From positions 2,834,032 to 2,898,031 of the forward strand of contig NZ_CM002139.1 in assembly GCF_000454545.1 (NCBI RefSeq): DNA of 64,000 nt, in the 5' to 3' direction. Below are positions 2,873 to 24,578 of this stretch, piece by piece (positions within the stretch are counted from its first letter, which is position 1; each line of letters begins with the position of its first letter). Under the pieces are notes generated by a model. That model was not told the origin of the DNA, did no database searches, and saw only the letters and a list, made by a program, of their open reading frames with translations. The stretch comes from Xanthomonas cassavae CFBP 4642 (GTDB lineage Bacteria > Pseudomonadota > Gammaproteobacteria > Xanthomonadales > Xanthomonadaceae). Made by a program: the position numbers and the translations under genes.

Positions 2873-4168
2873 TCATCGCAGCGCCTGCCAGCGGGCCCGC
2901 AGCACATCCAGCTGCAGGTCCGCCGCCGCACCGGGCGATACCCGCGCAGCCAGGCTGCCTTCCGGCGTGCGCCCCTGCCCTGCGCTGTCCGATGCTTCGG
3001 CTGCAGCCTTGTAGGCATCGCGAAATGGCACGCCGGCCACGGCCGCTTCCACCGCCACATCGGTGGCGTACATGCCCGAATCGATCGCCGCCTGCAGCCT
3101 GTCCGGGCGCCATTCCAGGTTTGCCAGCAGGGCCGGCAGCAATTCCAGCGCGGCCAGGCCGCGGCCGAAACCGTGCACGATGGCGCCCTTGCTGCTCTGC
3201 AGATCGCGGTGGTAACCGGACGGCAGCGACAACAGTTGTTCGATCTCGGTACGTGAGGCCGCCACGCTGGCGTGGGTGGCGCGCATCAATTCGATGACAT
3301 CGGGGTTACGCTTGTTGGGCATGATCGAGCTGCCGGTGGTGTACTGCGCCGGCAACGCGACGAAGGCGAATTCGCCGCTGGTGAACAGCGACAGGTCCCA
3401 GGCGATGCGGCGCAGATCCAGGGTGGCGCTGCCCAGCGCTTCGAGCGCGGCCAGCTCGTACTTGCCGCGCGAGAGCTGGGCGTAGATCGGCGAGACCTGC
3501 AACCGCGCAAAACCCAGCGCGGCCGTGGTGTGCGCACGGTCCAGCGGCAGATTGACGCCGTAACCGGCCGCGGTACCGAGCGGATTGCTGTCCACCAGCT
3601 GCAAGGTGTCGTGGGCGCGCACCGCGTTGTCGATGAAGGCCTCGGCCCAGCCGGCCCACCACATGCCTGCCGAGGACACCACCGCCCGTTGGATATGCGT
3701 GTAACCGGGCACCGGCAGCGCCGCTTCAGCCTGCGCGCGGTCCAGCGCCACCTTGGCGATCTCGCCGCTCAGCTCAGCCACGCGCTGCAGCTTGTTCTTC
3801 AACCACAGGCGCGTGGCGACCAGGATCTGGTCGTTACGGCTGCGCCCGGTGTGGATCTTGCGGCCGGCATCGCCCAGGCGCTCGGTCAGGCGCGCCTCGA
3901 TGGCCGAATGGCAATCCTCGTACCGCGCGTCCAGCACGAACGCACCGCTGCGGAAATCATCGGCCAGCAGCGCCAGCTCGCGCTCCAGGCTGGCCAGCTC
4001 GTCGGCGGTGAGGATGCCGATGTGCTGCAGGCCCTGCGCGTGCGCCGTGCTGGCGGCGATGTCGTGCAGGAAGAATTCGCGGTCCAGGATCACGTCGTCG
4101 CCAGCCAGGAAGGCCTGGATCTTGGCGTCTACGGCCACGCCGGGTTTTTGCCACAACAGATTGGTCAT
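2873..4168 (-). CDS. argH: argininosuccinate lyase
   Basis: Cleaves argininosuccinate to arginine and fumarate, the last arginine step. It has 431 residues, starting [16 protein letters not shown]; an open frame continues upstream of this ATG, but it runs into argC and lacks family similarity. Family signature [13 protein letters not shown], with the catalytic serine loop, lies near residue 290; TGRSRNDQ and HIQRA are also present. The C-terminus, unlike the longer enteric enzyme, is compact. It starts 26 bp after argC and is followed by the YciI-like gene. Confidence 0.95.
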
Positions 4169-4194
4169 CGGGGGTCCTTTTTGCGTCCCGGGTA

Positions 4195-5151
4195 TCACAT
4201 CGGAATTGCCAACAATTCGTCCCAGCCAAACGCCAGGTTGAGATTCTGCATCGCCTGCGTCGCCGCGCCCTTGAGCAGGTTGTCCAGCGTCGCCACCACC
4301 ACCACCCGCTTGTTGCCGGGCGCCAGGGTGATGCCGCCGATCTGCACGCCGTGCCGTCCGGCGATGCGGCTGACCCACGGCGCTTCGTCCACCCGCTCGA
4401 TCAGCGGCTCATCGGCGTAGCGCTGCGCATAGCGCGCCTGCAGCTGCTCGCGCGTCAGCGGCTGCTGCAACCAGGCATTGACGGTCATGGTGATACCACG
4501 GAAATGCGGCGCCACATGCGGCATGAATTCCACCGGTACGCCGAGCTGTGCGGAGACTTCGCGCTCGTGCATGTGGTTGGTCAGCGCATACGGCATCAGG
4601 TTGTCGGCGAGCAGCGCGGGATTGTTCTTGTCCGACGGTGTGGTGCCGGCGCCGGAATAACCGGACACGCCGAAGCACTGCGGCGGGCCGGCCAGCTGAT
4701 CCAGCAGCGGTGCGATCACCAGTTGCATGGCAGTGGCATAGCACCCCGGATTGCTGATGCGCCGTTGCCCGGCATAACGCGTACGGGTGAGTTCGGGCAG
4801 GCCGTAATACCAGGCCGGATCGAAGCGATAGTCGGCGGACAGATCGATCACCAGCGTCTGCGGCCTGGCCGCATCGATCGCGGCCACGAACGGTTCGGCC
4901 TTGCCATTGGGCAGTGCCAGAATCACCACGTCCGCGGCCTTGGCGGCCACCGCGTCGGCGTCCAGACTTTCAAACCGCAGATCGCCGCGATAGCCGTCGT
5001 TGTGGTCGGCCACCGCCTGCCCGGCCAGTTCGCGCGAGGACACGAAGACCAGCTGCAGATGCGGATGCGCCGCCACCAGCTTGATCAATTCCGAACCGGT
5101 ATGCCCGCGGGCGCCGACAATGCCGATGGTGGCGGTTGCTTGAACACTCAT
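4195..5151 (-). CDS. argC: N-acetyl-gamma-glutamyl-phosphate reductase
   Basis: Reduces N-acetylglutamyl phosphate to the semialdehyde with NADPH. It has 318 residues from [12 protein letters not shown]. The nucleotide-binding loop GARGHTG is at residues 13-19 and the catalytic cysteine is C137 in SNPGCYAT. A longer open frame exists upstream, but this start forms a 4-bp ATGA overlap with the preceding acetyltransferase stop, typical of coupled translation. The substrate is the product of the kinase domain of ArgB encoded just upstream. Confidence 0.95.
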
Positions 5152-5759
5152 GCGTTTGCTTCCAGGCGGAACTGCAGGTGGCGTTTGACCCCGGCCCATT
5201 CCGTATCGATGATGGAGAACACCACGGTATCGCGCGGCGTGCCGTCGGCGTGGCGGGCGTGATTGCGCAGCACCCCGTCCTGCTTTGCACCGAGCCGCGC
5301 GATGGCCGCGCGCGAGGGATGATTGAACCAGCTGGTCTCGAACACCACGCTCAGGCAATCCAGCGTTTCGAAGGCATGCTGCAGCAGCATCAGCTTGACC
5401 TCGGTATTCACGCCACTGCGCTGCGCATGCAGGGCGTACCAGGTGTAGCCGATCGACAGCCTGGGCACCGTCACGTCCAGCCCATAGTAGCGGGTGCAGC
5501 CGACGATCTCGCCTGCCGCATTGCGCACCACGAAGGGCAGCATCCTGCCTTCGGCCTGCGCCGCCAACGCGGCGGCCAGGTAATCGTCCAACTGCGCCGG
5601 TGCCGGCACGCCGGTGTACCACAGCCGCGACAACGCACCGTCTTCCAGCGCGGCACGCAGGCCGTCGACGTGCGCGGCCTGCAAGGGCTCCAGCGTTGCA
5701 TGCTGCCCGCGCAGCGTAGGCAGCTCGCGCCACAGCAAGGGCAATTGGCTCCAGGTCAT
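5148..5759 (-). CDS. GNAT-family acetyltransferase in the arg operon
   Basis: A 203-residue GNAT protein related to RimJ/RimL-type N-acyltransferases: [11 protein letters not shown] start, [17 protein letters not shown] around residues 105-120, then the hydrophobic strand SVVFETSW followed by [14 protein letters not shown]. It lies 5 bp after argB and overlaps argC by 4 bp, so it is translated as part of the operon. The operon already has an acetylglutamate synthase domain in ArgB, so this gene is not needed for that step. A role in acetylating another metabolite or protein is possible, but the substrate cannot be read from the sequence. Confidence 0.85.
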
Positions 5760-5764
5760 CGCGC

Positions 5765-7108
5765 TCAGCCCAGCAAGGTCGGCTGACGGGTGGCGCAATG
5801 CGCCACGCAGTGCTGGATCTGCTCGAAGTTCTCCAGCCCGTACCAGAACACCTTCCACTTTTCCTGCTTGATGCAGCCGTCGGATTCGGCGTAGTAGAAG
5901 ATGTTGACCTGGTTGTTGTGACGCGAGCGCCAGAACAGTTGCGGGGTTTCCTCGCGCATCACGTTCCACACCGCCCGGCCCAGGCCTTCGCCCTGCGCGT
6001 CGTCGAGCACGGCGAACTTGTCCAGATAGGTCAGCCGGCCTTCGCCGAGCTGGCCTTCGTCGGTGAGGATGACCGCGGCGCGATAGTTCTCGCTGACGTA
6101 GGCGCGCAGCAACGTGGTGTTGGAAAAATAGTCCGGCACCAGGGTGCGACCGAAGCTGGATTCGATCAGCGATCTGAGCCGTGGCAGATCCAGTTCGTCC
6201 CAGGACGTGGCGCGCAGCACGCGCTCGCCCCGCCGGACCAGCGTACCGGAACCCTTGTGGGTGAACAGTTCCTTGGCCAGATCCGCCGGCCGGGTGATCG
6301 ACACCGACGACTCCAGTGGCAGCCGGTCGAGCAGGTCCTTGATCTGTTCGATCTTCACCCGCATGCCGCCGTTGATCCACGGCTGCTGCATCAGGTGGTC
6401 GTACTCGGTGGACAGGTTGATCGAATCGATCAGCTTGCCATCGGCATCCAGCAGGCCGCCGGTGCCGGTGAGGAAGATGATCTTGTACGGTTGCAGCTCC
6501 TGCACCAGCTCGTTGGCGGCAAAGTCGGCGTTGACGTTGAGGATCTGCCCGCTGGGCGTTTCGCCCAGGCTGGTGATCACCGGGATCGAACCGGCCTGCA
6601 GGCTGGCTTCGATCGGTGCCAGATTCACCGCCTTGACCTCACCCACCAGGCCATAGGTCTCGCGATCCAGATACTGGGCTTCGAACACGCCGCCGGTGAT
6701 GGAGGTGGCGCGCGCGCCGTTCTGCTGCAGCGCTTCGACCAGCTTGAGGTTGGAGGCCTGGAACACCTTGCGCACGATCGCCAGCGCTTCGGGCGAGGTC
6801 ACCCGCAAGCCGTTGACGGTCTGCTTTTCGATGCCGGCGGCCGACAGTTCGGCGTCCAGCTGCGGGCCGGCGCCATGCAGCACGATCGGGGTCAGCCCCA
6901 CTTCCTGCAGGAACGACAGCGACGAGGTCAGCGCCTCCAGATCGTCGCGCAACACCGCGCCGCCGACCTTGACCACCGCAAAGCGTTTGGCGTCGAGCTG
7001 CGAAAACCGCTTGAGGTACTGGCTGATTTCCTTCGCGCTGGCCATGCTCGAAAGCAGGCGCACGATGGTCTGGCGGGTCTGTTTGTGGGGCTGTGCTGGG
7101 AGGGACAT
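5765..7108 (-). CDS. argB: bifunctional N-acetylglutamate synthase/kinase
   Basis: A fused enzyme of 447 residues. The N-terminal amino-acid-kinase domain spans about 35-285 (VVKVGGAVL at 45-53, [29 protein letters not shown]). The C-terminal acetyltransferase domain spans about 295-447 ([26 protein letters not shown]). The family (xanthomonad and Maricaulis-type NAGS-K, relatives of vertebrate NAGS) makes acetylglutamate from acetyl-CoA and glutamate and then phosphorylates it. The pathway would therefore need no separate argA or argJ. It is located between argE' and the GNAT gene in the arginine operon. Confidence 0.93.
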
Positions 7109-7153
7109 TGCCGTGATCGAAAGAGGAAGGAAGCGCCAGGCGCAAGGATTGGT

Positions 7154-8284
7154 TTAGCGGGAACCGTTGATGATGCGATGGACCGATTCGGCATAGCGCT
7201 GCAGTTGTTCCAGCGTCACGAACTCATCGGCGGTGTGCGCCTGGGCGATGTCGCCCGGGCCGTAGACCAGCGCGGTATAGCCGCCGGCCGAGAACAGCGA
7301 GGCCTCGGTCCAGAAGTCCACGGCATTGCCGATCGGCAGGTCCAGCGCGTCGGCCACGTCGCGCGCGGCCAGGCGCCGCTCTTCGGCACGCGCAATGTCG
7401 CCCGACGGCAGGCTCGGGCCGCGAAAGGTTTCTTCGAACTGTGCCGCTGCCGGATCGGCAAAACCGGCGAAGGTCGCCAGCAGTCCATCCACATCCATCG
7501 ACGGCAGCGGTCGGAAACCGAAGCGCAACTCGGCCGCCGGCGCGATCATGTTGGCCTTGATGCCGCCATCGACGCGGCCGATGTTGAAGCGCAGGCCGGT
7601 CAGCCCGCCGAAGCGTGCATGTGCCAGCGCCTCGACATGATCCAGCGCCTTGCCGCCCCAGCGCATCGCCTGGTGGAGCGCGCTTGCTGAAGGGTCCTGC
7701 TTGCCCGACGCATGCCCGGCGCGGCCGGCAAAACGCATCAGCACCGAGCTGATGCCGCGATGCGCCAGCACCGCCTCGCTCATGGTCGGCTCGGCCACCA
7801 GCACCGCTTCGAATACCGGGACCCGGGACCCGGGACCCGGGACCGCGGGGTGGGCGGCCAGGAATGCGGCAATACATCGCGGATCGTTGGCTTCCTCATC
7901 GGACGAGAACAGGAACGCTGCATCGCCATCGCCGGCATTGGCGGCGGCAATCAACGCCGCAGCCGCGCCCTTGATGTCGCACACCCCCAACCCGATCACG
8001 CGGTCGGCGGTGCGCCGCATCACATGCGGATTGGCGCTCCAGTGCGGCGAATCCGGCACCGTGTCCAGGTGCACGTTGAACAGGTACCTGGGCGTCCCGC
8101 GCACCGCATACAAGCTCACCGCGCCAGCGCCGTGGTCGATTACCTCGACCTGGAAGCCGGGCAACTGCGCGCGCAGGTAATCGAAGATCCCGCCCTCAGC
8201 AGCGATCGCCCGCGGCGGATTGCGGGTGTCGAAGGACACCAGGGCGCCCAGGTGGGTCAGCGTGTTGTCGAGCAGTGTGGTCAT
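7154..8284 (-). CDS. argE': N-acetyl-L-citrulline deacetylase (M20 family)
   Basis: An M20 zinc hydrolase of 376 residues. Metal/catalytic residues visible: H72-L-D74, D103, the E130-E131 pair, and HTADEF near the C-terminus. In organisms with acetylornithine transcarbamylase this family removes acetate from acetylcitrulline, giving citrulline for ArgG; the gene order here supports that role over acetylornithine deacetylation. Between residues 148 and 157 the coding sequence contains four tandem copies of a 7-bp unit (7816-7843), which makes a PGPGSRVP segment. A 5' fragment of this gene is duplicated upstream at 8413-8703. Confidence 0.92.
   Translation of the reverse strand: MTTLLDNTLTHLGALVSFDTRNPPRAIAAEGGIFDYLRAQLPGFQVEVIDHGAGAVSLYAVRGTPRYLFNVHLDTVPDSPHWSANPHVMRRTADRVIGLGVCDIKGAAAALIAAANAGDGDAAFLFSSDEEANDPRCIAAFLAAHPAVPGPGSRVPVFEAVLVAEPTMSEAVLAHRGISSVLMRFAGRAGHASGKQDPSASALHQAMRWGGKALDHVEALAHARFGGLTGLRFNIGRVDGGIKANMIAPAAELRFGFRPLPSMDVDGLLATFAGFADPAAAQFEETFRGPSLPSGDIARAEERRLAARDVADALDLPIGNAVDFWTEASLFSAGGYTALVYGPGDIAQAHTADEFVTLEQLQRYAESVHRIINGSR
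7816..7843. repeat. four tandem 7-bp units inside argE'
   Basis: CCGGGAC is repeated exactly four times. Seven is not a multiple of three, so gain or loss of one unit would shift the argE' frame. The unit resembles the GGGA(T/G)TC heptamers of the palindromic intergenic elements in this window. Confidence 0.95.
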
Positions 8285-8354
8285 TGATTGCGTCTGGTTG
8301 CGTCGGGCAGCGTGGTGCTGCGTGTCCGAGTGTGCGGGGTAGCACTACGTTCAT

Positions 8355-8456
8355 ACCGCTCTTCCCCCGCCTGCGGGGAAGGGCGGATGGGGGCAATGCG
8401 ACAGCCTGCCCCTCATCCGGCGCTACGCGCCACCTTCTCCCGCAAGCGGGAGAAGG
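8355..8456. repeat. short inverted-repeat element (GGGAGAAGG family)
   Basis: Contains the paired motifs CTTCCCCCGCCTGCGGGGAAG at the left and CTTCTCCCGCAAGCGGGAGAAG at the right. It is a member or hybrid of the family seen at 8797, 13711 and 19511. It lies in the 679-bp space between argE' and argG. Confidence 0.6.
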
Positions 8457-8703
8457 GAATCTGCAAGCGGGAGAAGGGAATCTGCGAGCGAGAGAAGAGA
8501 ATCTGCGAGCGGGAGAAGGACTCTGCGCTCGGCACAACTGCTCCCGCGCTACGGTCGATCACCTCGACCTGGAAGCCGGGCAACTGCGCGCGCAGGTAAT
8601 CGAAGATCCCGCCTTCGGCAGCGATCGCACGCGGCCGATTGCGGGTGTCGAAGGACACCAGCGCTTCCAGGTGCGTGAGGGTGGATGCGAGTAGATCGGT
8701 CAT
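8413..8703 (-). pseudogene. duplicated 5' fragment of argE' running into a 21-bp repeat
   Basis: An open frame of 96 codons starting MTDLLASTLTHLEALVSF. The first 52 or so residues are nearly identical to the N-terminus of the intact argE' next to it (matching FDTRN, AIAAEGGIFDYL, PGFQVEVID). Then the frame enters four 21-bp repeats that encode FSRSQI(L/P)-type heptads and stops. It lacks every zinc ligand, so it cannot be an active deacetylase. It looks like a partial tandem duplication trimmed by recombination. Whether the peptide is made is unknown. Confidence 0.85.
8444..8526. repeat. 21-bp tandem repeat, about four copies
   Basis: The unit is AAGCGGGAGAAGGGAATCTGC (8444-8464), repeated exactly at 8465-8485, then with changes at 8486-8506 and a 20-bp version at 8507-8526. 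It contains the GCGGGAGAAG core of the neighbouring palindromic element, so it probably arose by expansion of one arm. Confidence 0.9.
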
Positions 8704-8796
8704 GTCAGTTGGATCAAGGGTCCGAAGCAGCGGCTGGATGAAAACGTGCAAAGCACCGAGGTGCGCAAACGACTCATAAATCACATCGACGCCAAC

Positions 8797-8935
8797 CCTT
8801 CTCCCTCCGGGAGAAGGTGCCCCGAAGGGGCGGATGAGGGTGCGGGCGAAGCTCTCGCACTAGTGAATCGCACGAGGCTTCGCCCCGTACCCTCACCCCA
8901 ACCCCCGCTCCGCGCCCCGGAGGGAGAGGGGCTTG
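8797..8935. repeat. 139-bp palindromic element (GAGAAGGTGCCCC...ACCCTCACCCC family)
   Basis: Begins with the hairpin CTTCTCCCTCCGGGAGAAG, then GGTGCCCCGAAGGGGCGG and ATGAGGGTGCGGGCGAAGC. It closes with the inverted GCTTCGCCCCGTACCCTCA and a GGAGGGAGAGGGGCTT tail. It is the same architecture as 13711-13868 and 19511-19626. There is no coding capacity; it resembles a MITE or REP-like unit. It sits directly downstream of argG. Confidence 0.8.
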
Positions 8936-8963
8936 CCATCTGCTTGCCAGAGGCCCCAAACCC

Positions 8964-10205
8964 TCAGCGATTCACCTGCGCGTACAGCGTGGAGCTCATG
9001 CCGAACAGCTTGATGAAGCCTTCGGCCTCTTCCACGCCCCAATCCGCCGACTGCGCATAGGTCGCGCCCTTGGTGTTGAGCAGGTGCGGCGAACGCACCG
9101 CCACCGCATCGACGCGGCCACCGCGGGTTTCCAGCACCACTTCGCCATTGACCTTGGACTGCGACGACTTCAGGAATGCCTCGATGTCGGTCTTGAGCGG
9201 GTCGTGGTAGAAACCTTCGTACACCAGCTCCACCCACTTGCGTGCCACGTCCGGCTTGAAGCGGTTCTGCTGCTTGGTCAGCACCGCATCTTCCAGCGCA
9301 CGGTGCGCGGTCAGCAGCGAGATCAGGCCCGGCGCTTCGAACACGATGCGCCCCTTCAGCCCGATCACGGTGTCGCCGGTGTACACGCCACGGCCCACGC
9401 CGTACTGCGCAAACAAACCATTGAGCTTGGCCAGGATCCTGGCGCCCGGCAGCGGCTTGCCGTCCAGTTCCACCGCTTCGCCTTCGACGAACTTCAGCGT
9501 CACCGTCAGCGCTTCGGTCGGCCATGCGCTGCGCGGCGCACACCAGCCATGCGCGCCCTCGCCCGGTGCTTCCCACCGATCGATCTCGCCACCGGACATG
9601 GTCAGGCCCAGCAGGTTCTCGTTGATGGTGTAGGCCTGCTGCTTGGCACGCACGCCGAAACCGCGCTCTTCCAGATACTTCTGCTCGTAGGCGCGGGTCT
9701 GGGTGTGCTCCTTCTGGATTTCGCGGATCGGCGCGACGATCTGGTAGTCGCCCAGCGCCTTCACCGCCAGGTCGAAACGCACCTGGTCGTTGCCCATGCC
9801 GGTGCAGCCGTGCGCAATGATGCGCGTGCCCAGTTCTTCGGCGCGCTTGAGCGCGGCATCGACGATCAGGTAACGGTCGGACACCAGCAACGGGTACTGG
9901 CCCTGATAGCCCTCGCCGGCCCACACGAACGGCTTGACGAAGCCATCCCAGATTGCCGGGCCACCGTCGACGGTGACGTGGCTGGCCGCGCCCAGCTCGG
10001 CGGCACGCTTCTCGATGAAGTCTCGCTCCTGCGCATCCACACCGCCGGTGTCGGCGAACACGGTATGCACCGCATAACCGCGCTCCTGCAGATACGGAAT
10101 GCAGAAGCTGGTGTCCAGACCACCGGAGAACGCCAGGACGATGTCTTTGGTGCCGGGATTTGAGATTGGGGATTCGGGATTGGTGGAAGCGGTCTGTTGC
10201 GACAT
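8964..10205 (-). CDS. argG: argininosuccinate synthase
   Basis: Joins citrulline and aspartate using ATP. It has 413 residues; the PP-motif SGGLDTS is at 27-33, with [13 protein letters not shown] and [11 protein letters not shown] further on. The N-terminus before the core ([12 protein letters not shown], residues 9-20) is encoded by one arm of a palindromic heptamer repeat (10152-10294), so the repeat has been taken into the coding sequence. No ATG closer to the core is in frame. It is preceded by argF' (72 bp) and followed by a 679-bp repeat-rich gap before argE'. Confidence 0.95.
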
Positions 10206-10294
10206 GGGGGGTCTCTTTGGAAGTTGACTAAGTTAGGTCGGGAGCGGAGTTCGCCGTTGCGAATCCCCAATCCCCAATCACGAATCCCGGCTGC
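10152..10294. repeat. palindromic heptamer element spanning the argF'-argG junction
   Basis: One arm (10152-10187; GGGATTTGAGATTGGGGATT...) lies inside the 5' end of argG. The inverted arm (10258-10290; GAATCCCCAATCCCCAATCA...) contains the argF' stop codon and its last residues SRDS. It is the same family as 1254-1409 and 41285-41374. The RNA could form a strong intercistronic hairpin. Confidence 0.8.
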
Positions 10295-11303
10295 CCTGGC
10301 CCACCAGGGCAGCCATGATCGCCTTCTGCACATGCAGGCGATTTTCGGCCTCATCGATGGCGATGCAGTTGGGCGAATCCATCACCGCGTCGGTGGCCTT
10401 GACGTTGCGACGCAGCGGCAGGCAATGCGAAAACACGCCGTTGTTGGTCAGCGCCATCTTGCGTTCGTCGACGATGAAGTGCTGATACTGGTCGCGGATC
10501 GGCTTTTCAGGCTCCCAGTTACCGAAGAACGGCAACGCGCCCCAGCTTTTGGCATAGACGACATCGGCACCGGCGTAGGCGCTGTCGATATCGTGGCTCA
10601 CCTGCAGCGAGCCACCGCTTTCGGCCACGTTCTGTGCCGCCCAGCCCATGTAGCGCTCGTCCAGGATGTAGTCCGGCGTCGGGCATAGCAGGGTCACGTC
10701 CATCCCCAGGCGGGTGGCAATGGTCAGCGCCGAATTGGCCACCGCGGTGTTGAGCGGCTTGGGGTGGTAGGTCCAGGTCAGCACGTACTTCTTGCCGCGC
10801 AGATCCGGCGTGCCGAAGTGTTCCTGCAGCGCCAGCGCGTGCGCCAGCTCCTGGCACGGGTGGGTGATGGTTTCCATGTTGATCACCGGCACCGGCGAGT
10901 ACCTGGCGAAGCTCTTGAGCACCTGGTCCTCGCGATCCCTGGACCAGTCGACGAACTTCGGAAACGCACGCACGCCGATCAGGTCGACATAGCGGCCAAG
11001 CACGCGCGCCACTTCGGCGATGTGCTCTTCGGTGTCGCCATCCATCACCGTGCCCAGGTTGAACTCGATCGGCCATGCATCCTTTCCCGGCTGCAGCACC
11101 ACCGCATGCCCGCCCAGCTGGAAGGCACCCAGTTCGAAGCTGGTGCGGGTCCGCATGGACGGGTTGAAGAACACCAGCGCGATCGACTTGCCCTTCAGCT
11201 CGCTTCCCAGCCTGTTGCGTTTGAACAGCGCGGCCTGGGTCAACAGCGCGTCCAGTTCGGCGCGGCTCCAGTCCTGGGTGTTCAAGAAGTGCTTCAGTGA
11301 CAT
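10278..11303 (-). CDS. argF': N-acetyl-L-ornithine transcarbamylase
   Basis: Transfers carbamoyl phosphate to N-acetylornithine, giving acetylcitrulline. It has 341 residues. The carbamoyl-phosphate motif SMRTRTS is at 49-55, HPCQ at 148-151 and HCLPLRR at 293-299. Two residues known from the X. campestris enzyme are at the expected numbers: E92, which governs acetyl- versus succinylornithine choice, and K302, reported as carboxylated. An ordinary OTCase would have a different 80s loop and an ornithine SMG loop. First structural gene of the arginine operon, behind a leader with attenuator features. Confidence 0.95.
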   Translation of the reverse strand: MSLKHFLNTQDWSRAELDALLTQAALFKRNRLGSELKGKSIALVFFNPSMRTRTSFELGAFQLGGHAVVLQPGKDAWPIEFNLGTVMDGDTEEHIAEVARVLGRYVDLIGVRAFPKFVDWSRDREDQVLKSFARYSPVPVINMETITHPCQELAHALALQEHFGTPDLRGKKYVLTWTYHPKPLNTAVANSALTIATRLGMDVTLLCPTPDYILDERYMGWAAQNVAESGGSLQVSHDIDSAYAGADVVYAKSWGALPFFGNWEPEKPIRDQYQHFIVDERKMALTNNGVFSHCLPLRRNVKATDAVMDSPNCIAIDEAENRLHVQKAIMAALVGQGSRDS

Positions 11304-11412
11304 CGATCGATCCTTTGCTGCGTGCTGCTGCTGCGTGGTCCGTCAGGAGCGACGGGGTGCGCGACATGCGCGTTTCTTGCGGTTGAAACTTTTGTGACGC
11401 CAAAACGAAAAA

Positions 11413-11431
11413 ACCCAGCCTCGGGCTGGGT
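11413..11431 (-). terminator. rho-independent terminator arm of a probable arg attenuator
   Basis: Read on the minus strand: ACCCAGCC, loop CGA, GGCTGGGT, then TTTTTTCGTTTT. It lies about 110 bp before the argF' start and about 30 bp after the leader-peptide stop. The left arm (11424-11431) can alternatively pair with GCTGGGT at 11463-11469, which overlaps the leader stop codon. That makes it a switchable terminator and not a simple end of transcription. It could instead terminate the upstream gene that ends at 11613; the alternative pairing argues against that. Confidence 0.75.
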
Positions 11432-11456
11432 CTTTGAAAACAGGCAGCAAAACGCT

Positions 11457-11487
11457 CCGGTTACCCAGCGAAAATGTGGGATTCCGG
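11457..11487 (-). promoter_or_regulatory. competing hairpin segments 1 and 2 of the arg leader
   Basis: On the minus strand, CCGGAATCCCA (11477-11487) can pair with TGGGTAACCGG (11457-11467), forming an 8-bp hairpin with a 3x3 internal loop. The downstream half of this hairpin also contains GCTGGGT, which can pair with segment 3 of the terminator (11425-11431). The upstream half starts immediately after the last leader Arg codon (11488-11490), so a stalled ribosome would mask it. Confidence 0.65.
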
Positions 11488-11562
11488 TCGGCGGGCACGC
11501 GAGGTCATGCCGGAAGCCATCCGGGCGGCGCTGGTGTCGTGCTGAAAGGCGTTTGCTTGCAT
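11461..11562 (-). CDS. putative arginine leader peptide (33 aa)
   Basis: A 33-codon reading frame beginning MQANAFQHDT and ending RARRPESHIFAG, with a GAGGA about 10 nt before the ATG. Four Arg codons are present, three of them in Arg-Ala-Arg-Arg (CGT GCC CGC CGA), placed just upstream of the competing hairpins. The stop codon TAA lies inside the segment that would form the antiterminator. This layout is that of ribosome-mediated attenuation of amino-acid operons; translation and regulation are inferred, not shown. Confidence 0.65.
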   Translation of the reverse strand: MQANAFQHDTSAARMASGMTSRARRPESHIFAG

Positions 11563-11612
11563 AGGGCGCGAATCCTCGCATGCATGCGGGCACGGCGCAA
11601 CCGCTGCGCCAC

Positions 11613-12125
11613 TCACCGCGGCGGGGCAACGATGGCGTCGGGAATATAGGGGGTCACCGAAACGCGGATCCGCAGCCGGTTACCCGGGTCCTCCGGCAGC
11701 CGCGAGCGGTATTTGGTGCCCTTGTAGACGTAGTCCACGTCGAAGGCGATCGGCCGGCGGAACTCGCGCGGGACCTCCACCACCTTGCAGTTGCGGCGCG
11801 TGCTGGTCGGCGGCACCGCCACCGGCGCGGCCGGCTCGGGGCGACGCGAGAACATTTCCTTGACCGAATCCACCATGCGGTTGATCCGCCCCTCGTCCTC
11901 GGCCGGCGCCACCGCCACCTGGGCGGCCTGCTCGGCCTCGCACTGCTCCTCGATCCGGGTGGCGCGCAAGGTCTGGTAGACCGGCTCCACGTTCAATACC
12001 TGGGCGTAGTCAAGCTTGACGTTTTCGATCACGACGACCCGGTTTTTGACCTCGGGATCTGCCGCATGTGCCGGCATCACCTGCCAGGCCAGCACGCACA
12101 GCATGGAGAACGGGAGAAGTCGCAT
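11613..12125 (-). CDS. exported hypothetical protein (17-kDa surface-antigen-like ends)
   Basis: A 170-residue protein with signal peptide MRLLPFSMLCVLAWQ...AHA, likely cut after residue 21. The mature part starts with strands VVVIENVKLDYAQVLNVEPVYQ and ends with DYVYKGTKYRSRLPEDPG followed by LRIRVSVTPY. These resemble the ends of glycine-zipper outer-membrane proteins, but the glycine zipper itself is replaced by an acidic/basic linker (INRMVDSVKEMF). The start was chosen at the signal peptide; upstream in-frame codons add nothing recognisable. Function unknown; probably periplasmic or outer-membrane associated. Confidence 0.75.
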   Translation of the reverse strand: MRLLPFSMLCVLAWQVMPAHAADPEVKNRVVVIENVKLDYAQVLNVEPVYQTLRATRIEEQCEAEQAAQVAVAPAEDEGRINRMVDSVKEMFSRRPEPAAPVAVPPTSTRRNCKVVEVPREFRRPIAFDVDYVYKGTKYRSRLPEDPGNRLRIRVSVTPYIPDAIVAPPR

Positions 12126-19442: not shown

Positions 19443-19495
19443 GTTCGATGTGCGTATCGATCCCCGATTGGTGCGTGTGCGCGGCAAGTATTTGC
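19443..19495 (+). pseudogene. degenerate copy of the M23 peptidase 3' end
   Basis: GGTTCGATGTGCGTATCGAT followed by a CGCGGCAAGTA end closely matches the last 17 codons of the peptidase (WFDVRIDPLLVLERGK, stop). The copy reads FDVRIDPRLVRVRGK, with the stop codon changed to TAT. It is only about 50 bp long and sits directly before a palindromic element. Confidence 0.75.
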
Positions 19496-19510
19496 AGATC
19501 TGCGGCTTTT

Positions 19511-19626
19511 GCCTCTCCGATCGGAGAAGGTGGCGCGCAGCGCCGGATGAGGATGCGTCGGCGGCTGGTTGACTGTGCAACCGTACCCTCACCCCAACCT
19601 CTCTCCCGGGGGGGCAGAGGGGCTTC
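19511..19626. repeat. 116-bp palindromic element
   Basis: CCTCTCCGATCGGAGAAGG, GCGCGCAGCGCCGGATGAGG, then ACCGTACCCTCACCCCAACC and CTCTCCCGGGGGGGCAGAGG. Same family as 8797-8935 and 13711-13868. Confidence 0.75.
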
Positions 19627-20054
19627 CACTTCGCGACAGCCAGGAGGCCCTCGACGATCCGCCCACGTGTTGATCGATCGGGTGGGCTTGTTGCGCGCGC
19701 AGCTATGCGGCATCAGGAGCGTGGGTCGATTACGCACCATTCCTGTTGGGTTAGCGCAGATCAGACATGCTGAACCTGCAGACCAGCACTGACCCACTGC
19801 AGTCAAGATCTGAAACCTCTGAGACCCGAGCGCAAGCAACGGGAAAAATCAATACAGCGCAGAATCGTCACGTTCCGCCACACCTACCCGCTGCGCTTGT
19901 GTCCATCGCCGGGCTTTGGGGTACAACCGGGAGGGCGTGGATCATTGCCGGTAACAGCGGCCGATCAGTCAGCGACGGCCAGTCCGTGTCGCAGCCCAGT
20001 CCTGGCAACCGACGTGCTTCGTCTCCCCTCCCCCGACTGCAGGAGATGTGCGAC

Positions 20055-20700: not shown

Positions 20701-21135
20701 GCAGCCCCACGACATTTCCGCGCGATGCGTGGGCGCAACTGCGTCGGCTCACCCCTGCGCGCATCGCGCTCGGACGGGTCGGTACCAGCCTGCCCACCGC
20801 AGCCCACCTGGATTTTCATCTGGCGCATGCGCAGGCGCGCGATGCGGTGCACCTGGCCTTCGACCCCGTTCCCCTGCAGGCCGTGCTGGACCAACGCGGG
20901 CGCACCAGCATTCTGCTGCACAGCGCTGCGATGGACCGGCACGCCTATCTGCAACGCCCGGAGCTGGGCCGCCGCCTGGCCGACGATGCTGCCACGCACC
21001 TGCGCGGGCTCACCGCCGTCCATGGCGGCGGGCAGGATGTCGTGGTGGTGGTCGCTGACGGGCTGTCTGCGCTTGCCGTGCATCCGCATGCGGCGCACAT
21101 GCTCGAACAGATCGATGCCCTGGCTGCGCATGAGG
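20697..21135 (+). pseudogene. eutC: ethanolamine ammonia-lyase small subunit, truncated
   Basis: The first 146 or so residues are EutC-like: [74 protein letters not shown]. After IDALAAHE (about 21135) the similarity ends and the frame continues through unrelated residues to a stop at 21357-21359. The cobalamin-binding C-terminal part of this roughly 270-residue subunit is missing. Together with the permease/eutB fusion this is a dead eut locus. Confidence 0.82.
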
Positions 21136-21475
21136 ATACGCCGACGCCACACACAAACTTGCGTTTCTGTTGCGCGAATCGTCCCGTCGCAAGCTATCCG
21201 GCGTACAGCTCAAGGATGAAGCAGAGCGACCGGCGTTGCCATCGGACGGGCCTGCCGCTGCGGTGTCACGTACGTTTCTGCTGCCAGACGCGTGATGACC
21301 TGACCGGTGGGCTTGGGAGCGATCTTCAGCAAAGCCGCTCGCAGCCATGCCATGTGTAACATCCGCGCCCAGCCGATCAAGGCACAACACAAGGCGCATT
21401 GCGCACACCTTTGCCACCGGCCTTCATGGACACCCCTAGCGCGCACCCGGGCGTGATGATGCCCGCGCATGGCCG
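21136..21475. other. 340-bp stretch without a recognisable gene
   Basis: It lies beyond the eutC break point. Short open frames on both strands carry no motif that I recognise. It may be the remains of whatever replaced the eutC 3' end. Confidence 0.5.
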
Positions 21476-21766
21476 TTACCGCAGTGCGCCGTCCTGCGGG
21501 TTGCTTGCGGCATACGTGCTGGTCCGCAGCTCGCTGTCATGCACATGACGCAATGCATTGCGCACGTCCTCAGGCAGCCGATCGACATCCAACAACACCT
21601 TGCCGGAATGCACGTCGCGCACCGCCGACACCGGCAGAACGAAATCGCCACCGTTTTCGATATTGATCACCAACTCGGCACCGTCGTCGCGAAGATCGCG
21701 CACCGCGCCAACGCCAATTTCGCCATCGCGTAAAAAGACCATCTGGCCGATTTCAATCTGCTGCAT
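21476..21766 (-). CDS. PRC-barrel-like small protein
   Basis: A 96-residue protein starting MQQIEIGQMVFLRDGEIGV, preceded by a clear GAGGAGACGGAC ribosome site. The repeated beta pattern (DGEIGVGAVRDLRDDGAELV, GGDFVLPVSAVRDVHSGKVL) is typical of PRC-barrel/DUF2171-like proteins; the C-terminal tail is polar. An upstream extension of the frame lacks such a start signal. Function unknown; possibly stress-related, given the neighbouring general stress protein on the same strand. Confidence 0.7.
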   Translation of the reverse strand: MQQIEIGQMVFLRDGEIGVGAVRDLRDDGAELVINIENGGDFVLPVSAVRDVHSGKVLLDVDRLPEDVRNALRHVHDSELRTSTYAASNPQDGALR

Positions 21767-22039
21767 GTCCGTCTCCTCGTTGAGCACTGCGACACAAGCG
21801 CGCCGTGCATTGGCGAACGATGATCGCGCCGCCCGGTGTTCTGAGCTGGTGAAGCAAGAATCAGTGCCGCGTGGGAGCGCGCAACTCGGCGGCCACTGAC
21901 CTGCGGACAGCCAAACCAAGCGCTCATGCACTGGCATGCGATGCAAGCGGCACCCATACTCCCTGCGCGTGCCCATGACAGGTGCAGCGACCTCATTGCG
22001 CCCACGCGGCTATTTCAACCGCGTGCGCGTCTGTGGACA

Positions 22040-22528
22040 TCAGCGCAGTGGAACGTCCGCCACCTTGTCCTGATAGTCCTTCTTGGGGTCGACACCGAGC
22101 AGCACCTTGATACCGGCCAGCAGGCTGGACCCGTTGAGCCAGATCTGCGCATGATCGGGATCCAGGCGCAGCAGCGCCAGCTTGGGATCATCCTTGCCGC
22201 CTTCGTACCAGGCAGCCACATACGGATTCCAAAGGCGATCGATCACCGCCCGGTCGGTGTCTTCGCGCAACGAACCACTGATGCTGGCGAACAGATCATG
22301 TCCCTTGCTGCTGAAAGCGCCGATTACCCGCCGCCCCTGCCCCAGCATTGCAATCAATGCATTGTCCTTGGAAGTGAAAAACCAGATCGGGCCGCCGCTG
22401 TCGCCTTCGATTTGCGCGGTCATCGGGCGTGCATGACCGTCTTCCACACCATCCAGGCCAAGCATCACGGTGCGATCGGATTTCAGGGCTTTCCAGAATT
22501 TATCCTGCAGCTCTTTTGGGTCGGTCAT
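22040..22528 (-). CDS. general stress protein of the pyridoxamine-phosphate-oxidase fold
   Basis: A 162-residue flavin-binding split-barrel protein: LQDKFWKALKSDRTVMLGLD, ARPMTAQIEGDSGGPIWFFT, DLFASISGSL, LWNPYVAAWYEGGKDDPKL, RLDPDHAQIWLNG. Closely similar Xanthomonas general stress proteins have been reported to bind FMN; an enzymatic reaction is not established. The start at 22526-22528 is chosen because AGGA lies 6 nt upstream; ATGs 6 and 15 nt farther upstream are alternatives. Confidence 0.85.
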   Translation of the reverse strand: MTDPKELQDKFWKALKSDRTVMLGLDGVEDGHARPMTAQIEGDSGGPIWFFTSKDNALIAMLGQGRRVIGAFSSKGHDLFASISGSLREDTDRAVIDRLWNPYVAAWYEGGKDDPKLALLRLDPDHAQIWLNGSSLLAGIKVLLGVDPKKDYQDKVADVPLR

Positions 22529-24076: not shown

Positions 24077-24578
24077 CAGTGGCGAACAACACCCAGCAAG
24101 CGGTGTCAGGCGGGTGTGGATGGCGCGCTCAGAACCACAGTGTTCAAGGGGCACACACCGATACCGAGTAGCAGTCACGCCCGCCTGGCAACTGCGTAAG
24201 GCAAGTGACAGACAGTCTGCCGGCGTGCCGGTACGAGCAACGCAGTTTGAGGACCTGGACATAGCGCCTGTTGGCACCCGCGTGATGCGGTGTGCAAGCA
24301 GGCGCTTTCTTACAGACATCGCCTGGCGCCCGCACGTAAACGGCTAGCGATGAGACAACCGTTTCCTTCGGGCGCGCGGCGCTGGATTCGCTCCACCGCC
24401 ATCGACGAACGCGCTCAGGCGCCACGCTGGCGCCTCCTTGTGGCCGCTCACGCGACACCATCGACACCAATATTGCATGTAGCGCGGCTACCGGCCGATG
24501 GTCACGCCACTGTCATGCATCGGGTTGATGCCGTGTAGAGATCGGGCACCACCGTTCGTCCCGTTGGAGCACTCCCCC
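24077..24578. other. 502-bp intergenic region upstream of the polygalacturonase
   Basis: No gene seen. It contains the PIP box and -10 element described separately at 24367-24428; the message from there would have a leader of about 150 nt. Confidence 0.6.
24367..24428 (+). promoter_or_regulatory. PIP box (HrpX site) with correctly spaced -10
   Basis: TTCGG (24367-24371), 15 bp, TTCGC (24387-24391): the TTCGB-N15-TTCGB form of the plant-inducible-promoter box. A YANNNT -10 element, CACGCT (24423-24428), follows after 31 bp, inside the 30-32 bp spacing known for HrpX promoters. The polygalacturonase starts about 150 bp further on. Confidence 0.7.

Follow-up and report, generated by a model that had tools for sequence, protein, structure and literature searches.

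Here we describe the leader region in front of argF', the gene for N-acetylornithine carbamoyltransferase, in a 64,000-nt stretch of Xanthomonas cassavae DNA (the window), which comparison across related genomes indicates is very probably a ribosome-mediated transcription attenuator for arginine, similar to those of the trp, his and leu operons. In those attenuators the leader stop codon is placed so that a ribosome that has finished translation blocks segment 2 of the RNA. The argF' leader shares with them an ORF with control codons, a mutually exclusive antiterminator and terminator, and the placement of the stop codon: we found a leader ORF under reading-frame selection, Arg control codons, a terminator and an antiterminator that share segment 3 and, given the size of the ribosome footprint, a spacing in which the stall codon leaves segment 2 free and the stop codon blocks it. 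It differs from them in its amino acid, in an R-A-R-R stretch whose last codon, in the core group of leaders, is almost always the rare CGA, in the conservation of residues other than the control residues, and in a near-leaderless start in the window's own family.

The leader ORF and terminator lie in the minus-strand interval between the end of a gene at 11613 and the argF' start at 11303. The ORF (11461..11562, minus strand; 33 codons plus TAA, MQANAFQHDTSAARMASGMTSRARRPESHIFAG), whose frame and core residues are conserved through synonymous changes, carries the control region CGT GCC CGC CGA (Arg-Ala-Arg-Arg; 11488..11499, minus strand), assigned from the frequency of CGA in leaders versus argF'; a first-pass annotation, made from the sequence alone, had placed a 33-codon frame with this stretch at the same position. 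The last Arg codon of the control region, CGA at 11490-11488 (minus strand), is the likely stall codon. Segment 1 (CCGGAATCCCA; 11477..11487, minus strand) can pair with 11467-11457 of segment 2, as had been proposed, through its CCGG and CCCA, which match TGGG and CCGG in two paired blocks separated by three unpaired bases on each side. The annotation's second proposal, that GCTGGGT of segment 2 pairs instead with segment 3, also holds, but this antiterminator strand occupies 11469-11463 and so starts 2 nt upstream of the segment 2 given there; we therefore take segment 2 as 11457..11469 (minus strand). Segment 3 (ACCCAGC; 11425..11431, minus strand) has either segment 2 or segment 4 as its partner, and segment 4 (GGCTGGGT; 11420-11413, minus strand) belongs to the stem of an intrinsic terminator, whose T-run extends the element to 11408 (11408..11420, minus strand), again as claimed. 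The leader stop codon, TAA at 11463-11461 (minus strand), overlaps the end of the antiterminator strand, inside segment 2 as the annotation had it, and the annotation's coordinates overall are accurate to within two bases.

The first gene past the attenuator is argF' (10278..11303, minus strand; NCBIfam NF003384, 648.5 bits against a cut-off of 288), and the rest of the arginine cluster (argG, argE', argB, an ORF, argC and argH; 2873..10205, minus strand) was assigned by NCBIfam matches, that of argH (278.0 bits) being slightly below its cut-off of 279.5. The gene layout suggests that the cluster from argF' to argH is co-transcribed. The ORF between argB and argC (5148-5765, minus strand) looks acetyltransferase-like by eye and had no NCBIfam match at E up to 1e-10.

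The leader RNA is Xoo5. The Rfam Xoo5 model (RF02242) matches 11441..11564 (minus strand) over its full length with 144.7 bits (gathering threshold 50), with model position 1 at 11564. Work in X. oryzae cloned Xoo5 and mapped its 5' end by 5' RACE; Northern blots showed two bands, of about 130 and 100 nt, in early growth and only the shorter one later on. The gene directly downstream, PXO_00353, is named N-acetylornithine carbamoyltransferase in the same paper, which treats Xoo5 as a small non-coding RNA without a role (PMC3039613); Rfam files it as gene/sRNA. The main text of that paper contains neither 'leader' nor 'argF', and uses 'attenuation' once, of virulence. By homology to the Xoo5 5' end, transcription probably starts at 11564 (minus strand), 2 nt before the leader ATG. 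The cloned 3' end is equivalent to 11441, and the Northern sizes of about 130 and 100 nt fall short of the roughly 155 nt expected for termination near 11408, a difference that we assume to reflect trimming or size error.

An extended -10 promoter-like element (TGCGAGGAT; 11572..11580, minus strand) of the form TGnnAnnnT lies upstream of the leader ATG at a distance that fits the RACE 5' end; a strict sigma-70 promoter scan found nothing. Families of related genomes are given here by anonymous labels (f1 to f12, f1 being the window's own and f12, at a guess, Rhodanobacteraceae). Of 97 distinct f1 leaders, 87 have this motif 5-12 nt ahead of an in-frame ATG, as do 2 of 73 f12 and none of eight f2/f3 leaders, against 1.2% of shuffled upstream 25-mers. 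Since the element is common in f1 and rare in f12, the near-leaderless start looks like a trait of f1.

We propose that, when charged Arg-tRNA is ample, the ribosome would reach the stop codon that overlaps segment 2; with segment 2 blocked, segment 3 would pair with segment 4 and transcription would stop, leaving the short RNA Xoo5. When charged tRNA-Arg(ICG) is short, the ribosome would stall when an Arg codon, most likely CGA, enters the A site, and would cover segment 1; segment 2, which starts 20-21 nt further on, would stay free to pair with segment 3, and RNA polymerase would read into argF' and the arginine genes. By this geometry a stall at CGA is an 'on' signal, so that a shortage of charged tRNA has the right sign and arginine as a stalling ligand has the wrong one.

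The leader is widely conserved in f1 and f12. Selection by argF' similarity gave 80 loci, and in every one of them the leader before argF' carries the core T-S-R-A-R-R in its frame; a terminator lies 64-181 nt before argF' in 78 (by one filter). Of 397 genomes of the order, 247 contain the pattern ATGACNTCNCGNGCNCGNCGNCC, with third bases free, almost all of them in a single copy, and a backward control pattern was almost silent in the same set; exact matches fell in 119 of 128 f1, 123 of 124 f12 (f1 and f12 totals counted by hand), two of three f2 and three of ten f3 genomes, with none in the other 132. In a sample of 274 genomes of the class it occurred in three, all of them f1. A search allowing two mismatches located a leader upstream of argF' in each of the ten f1/f12 genomes that had been missed, with one or two changed pattern positions; in one of these misses (G237) the leader is about 400 nt upstream. 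All 33 pattern loci that were compared with argF' lie upstream of it, within about 430 nt.

For the finer comparisons, 187 of 191 candidate rows were used, giving 178 distinct leaders; the four rows removed (L073, L082, L083 and L155) had no terminator that passed the filter, and some genomes seem to be counted twice (L044/L111, L071/L237). The search behind this set demanded S-R-A-R-R with CGN Arg codons, and M-T as well for rows fetched by the pattern, leaving third bases free; how invariant these residues are can thus be read without bias only from the 80 argF'-selected loci and the whole-genome counts. In two of the removed rows, L082 and L083 (both f3), the leader stop comes one Gly codon past RRP and segment 2 seems shifted.

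The spacing on which the mechanism depends is regular across these leaders: of the 178, 163 have 20-21 nt from the beginning of the CGA position to segment 2, and in 151 the stop codon starts 6-7 nt inside segment 2. An uninterrupted helix of at least seven pairs between segments 2 and 3 is possible in 159 leaders, one of six pairs in 15, and only shorter ones in four. Pairing was assessed in an alignment of 92 of 129 selected rows, which describes f1 and f12 only, 37 rows having been omitted by hand (among them all five f3, both f2, L118, L138 and L143). The terminator helix is paired in 100% of cells with 59 two-sided cell changes, and the antiterminator helix in 97.8% (14 of 644 cells unpaired) with 36; both beat all 500 shuffles and every slid version on pairing and two-sided changes, though neither does better than its shuffles when changed pairs or pair types are counted, and the controls do not fully remove relatedness. 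Two-sided change in the antiterminator is limited to one column pair, U-A to C-G, whose segment 3 column also co-varies with segment 4, so that segments 2, 3 and 4 change together; this three-strand change separates mainly f1 from f12 and was seen again in two Luteimonas leaders (L054 and L067, read by hand). When segments 2 and 3 were swapped between leaders, the own partner was clearly favoured only in the GG class (21.05 vs 13.69), the difference in the AG class (18.72 vs 18.0) being small because G-U pairs rescue it, and we regard the swap as weak evidence for the pairing.

The 1:2 helix is weaker than the others and weakly supported: 76.4% of its cells are paired and five pairs show two-sided change, a level reached by 31 of 500 shuffles. 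It appears to be the one exception among the defining features of an amino-acid attenuator that were tested, the rest being recognizable in the leaders compared. Folded in isolation, the antiterminator, terminator and 1:2 hairpin have energies of -17.7, -17.6 and -10.8 kcal/mol, with z values against shuffles of -2.5, -5.1 and -1.9, respectively. For the entire 160-nt leader the gain in folding over shuffles is mild (z -1.93), and it is conservation across families that mainly places the leader beyond chance. A candidate pause hairpin spanning the codons ahead of SRARR (CCGGA/UCCGG in Xanthomonas) was striking in a few genera only and was dropped, as its register shifts between families, several columns are unpaired and its fold is no better than shuffles (z +0.77).

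Conserved Arg codons and alternative pairings, both kept across Xanthomonas relatives, together with the X. oryzae homologue of the RNA, whose 5' end as mapped by RACE lies upstream of the leader and not downstream of the terminator, thus support the arginine attenuator that the first-pass annotation had suggested. To that proposal we add that the leader RNA is Xoo5, that residues other than Arg are conserved and that the 1:2 hairpin is the weakest part; CGA appears to be the key codon, with tRNA-Arg(ICG) as the likely sensor.

The argF' upstream regions of six sister families (f4, f5, f6, f7, f9 and f10; set B) keep the switch with other peptides. A terminator was found by the filter in 43 of 54 of these loci, mostly with an ACCCAGC- or ACCCGGC-type stem as in f1 and f12. 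The 11 loci without one comprise ten from f9 and one from f5; an imperfect terminator missed by the filter was seen at least at L179, together with an RRRR leader, and argF' loci with no terminator found upstream include L147 (f5) and f9 loci such as L149, L256 and L260, in genomes without an ArgR match. In a single f8 genome that was tested (G008), the argF' match scored just 27.5 bits and there was no ArgR, perhaps reflecting a different arginine pathway. The set B leader ORFs lack the MTSRARR core and carry Arg clusters such as LRRRRR, RRRPRPR, IRRLRRP and RRRRRR, with 4.05 Arg per 8 codons vs 1.64 in shuffles (z 13.7; the next best amino acids reach z 5.3).

Ten of the 43 leaders have no Arg cluster or no clear (six-pair) segment 2. 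Among the remaining 33, of which 22 are from f7 and many are relatives of each other, an Arg codon falls 20-21 nt before segment 2 in 29, and equally 23-24 nt before it in 29; 27 leaders have an Arg codon at 20-21 nt when the best 8-codon window alone is considered, and any pair of offsets beyond the 14-33 nt range is occupied in at most five leaders. The summed Arg profile peaks at 21, 24, 30 and 33 nt with a dip at 27, and in the R-A-R-R of the core group Arg stands at 30, 24 and 21 nt and Ala at 27. That fixed-register Arg codons, and not one peptide, are what the families have in common is the strongest argument that Arg codons are the sensor. The terminator stem is separated from argF' by only 9-13 nt in 12 of the 43 loci, and by at most 35 nt in 21 (argF' starts inferred by alignment); such a gap hardly leaves room for a separate promoter, so that read-through is needed.

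The choice of Arg codon is strongly biased. Of the 178 distinct leaders, 175 have CGA as the last core Arg codon, whereas in argF' of the 80 named loci CGA accounts for ten of 1287 Arg codons. CGG is absent from the three core Arg positions (0 of 561 in 187 rows) vs 90 of 1246 CGN codons in argF'. Set B shows a similar preference: in the 41 leaders with at least three Arg in 8 codons, CGA makes up 66 of 174 leader Arg codons vs 55 of 808 in argF', and CGG plus AGR eight of 174 vs 287 of 808. The Arg anticodons among the 49 tRNA matches of the window's genome are ACG (two), CCG, CCT and TCT. As no tRNA-Arg(UCG), with anticodon TCG, is among the 49, a set that may be incomplete since tRNA-Ile is missing too, CGU, CGC and CGA are presumably all read by the one tRNA-Arg(ICG). 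CGA is read by inosine through a poor I-A pair. We consider it likely that CGA is the key codon and tRNA-Arg(ICG) the sensor. In a Salmonella his-leader assay CGA gave high de-attenuation and, according to the accessible text, was judged the worst read of CGU, CGC and CGA (PMC4046918). Elsewhere leader codon bias has been tied to selective charging, rarity alone being too simple an account (PMC1183508, in the part available), and in the speF leader rare and common Arg codons are described as equally effective (PMC6386406), an indifference that cautions against over-reading the choice of CGA.

Beyond its Arg codons, the f1/f12 peptide is itself conserved: relative to Ser, Ala at -8 and -5 is present in all 178 distinct leaders, Met and Thr precede Ser in 177 of 178, Gly stands at -3 in 178 of 187 rows, and Pro follows CGA in 173 of 187 rows, later residues being variable. 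Codons vary at Ala(-5), Thr(-1) and Ala(+2), and Ala(-8) is GCC in 171 of 178. The varied third positions at the first three sites point to an amino-acid constraint, and some twelve conserved residues ending at or just past CGA would be the pattern expected of a nascent chain that acts in the ribosomal tunnel. We are less sure that the nascent peptide A-x-x-A-x-G-M-T-S-R-A-R may assist the stall. The 33-residue peptide matched no Pfam and no NCBIfam family at E up to 1, in a search by HMMER, for which such short queries are hard.

How much the peptide matters divides the possible readings. That the attenuator senses arginine through its codons only, with the conserved peptide as a side effect of constraints on RNA or DNA, has in our judgement about an even chance: the f4, f6, f7 and f10 leaders, with their different peptides, seem to manage with codons alone, yet a side effect sits poorly with the variable third positions at conserved Ala(-5), Thr(-1) and Ala(+2) (the mostly GCC Ala(-8) says less) and with the failure of the hairpin over the conserved codons to better shuffles. 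More tentatively, the f1 and f12 leaders may be a hybrid condensed from an ancestral Arg-cluster attenuator, in which the peptide primes the ribosome and one slow, inosine-read CGA senses arginine. If so, codon-based attenuation and nascent-chain arrest would be combined in one device, or the peptide would have a second role in trans.

It is improbable that the leader instead encodes an arrest peptide, stalled when arginine, ornithine or an acetylated precursor binds to the nascent chain as a ligand, in place of charged-tRNA sensing. The speF leader peptide senses ornithine directly. That leader, with its ornithine and arginine effects, is a precedent (PMC6386406, as far as its accessible text goes), and the conservation of non-Arg residues over two families, with Ala(-8) and Ala(-5) invariant and a fade right after the CGA codon, is what such a peptide might leave; but a stall at CGA turns the operon on, which gives an arginine ligand the wrong sign, and the other families keep Arg clusters and not the f1/f12 peptide. 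Less probable still is the reading of Xoo5 as a small RNA that acts in trans, independently and with a terminator of its own, argF' having another promoter. The Northern bands of 100-130 nt and the cloning of Xoo5 in X. oryzae (PMC3039613, main text) would suit this account, as would its Rfam class, gene/sRNA, but what is conserved is a reading frame with synonymous changes, every one of the 33 pattern loci compared precedes argF', other families retain the Arg codons and switch with different peptides, and a gap of at most 13 nt between terminator stem and argF' in 12 of 43 set B loci argues against it; a trans role of Xoo5 alongside its cis role is possible. A chance terminator and ORF in a GC-rich intergenic region, which the modest fold z of the whole leader might suggest, is hardly credible given the comparative conservation and a backward control pattern that hits almost nowhere.

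Attenuation at argF' would give a control of arginine synthesis to an order in which ArgR is nearly absent from the sampled genomes. The ArgR C-terminal domain (PF02863) was found in eight of 397 genomes of the order, some of them incomplete, and all eight are f11 (eight of nine f11 genomes, by hand count); it was detected in eight of 14 control genomes and had no match in the window's own genome. One f11 argF homologue (41% identical) has no such leader upstream. In its genome (G011, contig C17), the ArgR match and this homologue lie about 1.4 kb apart (19494-19640 and 21061-22044). A regulon survey of 196 proteobacterial genomes reports ArgR in 62 genomes from six groups (PMC5343134), and the word xanthomonad is absent from its main text. 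The attenuator would also assign a role to a catalogued RNA, Xoo5, and would add arginine to the amino acids under classical attenuators, as far as our searches show.

Several known systems resemble the argF' leader in part. Mycobacteria have leaderless cysteine attenuator ORFs that start at the mRNA 5' end; the same kind of start is probable here, for another amino acid and in another phylum. T-boxes bind uncharged tRNA directly, without a leader ORF. Arginine control by T-boxes in other bacteria shares the RNA-level response to tRNA charging (PMC1262725, as available). In the orf34-speF leader of Salmonella, consecutive Arg codons in a short ORF likewise sense arginine through alternative folds, but the accessible text describes Rho-dependent termination, RNase G decay and translation of ornithine decarboxylase (PMC6386406); the speF peptide family (DUF2618/PF10940) does not match our leader peptide. 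The carAB leader of Pseudomonas aeruginosa is also a leader peptide with suspected attenuation on an arginine/pyrimidine gene, but pyrimidines are named as its signal in the text available (PMC4997734), and no second arginine leader or terminator was seen in the 500 nt before carA of the window's genome.

The literature searched, with supplements and most subscription papers outside its scope, yielded no description of the argF' attenuator: in its main text a 2010 terminator survey (PMC2965389) mentions Xanthomonas once, for rpsL, and neither argF nor arginine, and the main text of a proteomics paper on X. euvesicatoria (PMC5559785) has no Xoo5, argF or leader peptide. As far as we found, then, the amino acid with its operon, CGA as key codon and the conserved peptide are new. 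From simple Arg clusters to a fixed peptide with one conserved CGA, the leaders would form a natural series, and with it a test bed for control-codon choice (selective tRNA charging, I-A wobble) and peptide-assisted stalling.

Two further observations were made. A record titled Bacillus subtilis SK7B5 (L047) holds an argF' 91% identical to that of the window, with the same leader, which is likely contamination or mislabelling. Elsewhere in the window, the Rfam family RF02228 (Xanthomonas sRNA sX9) matches 24081-24156 (minus strand) with 49.4 bits, above its gathering threshold of 44.
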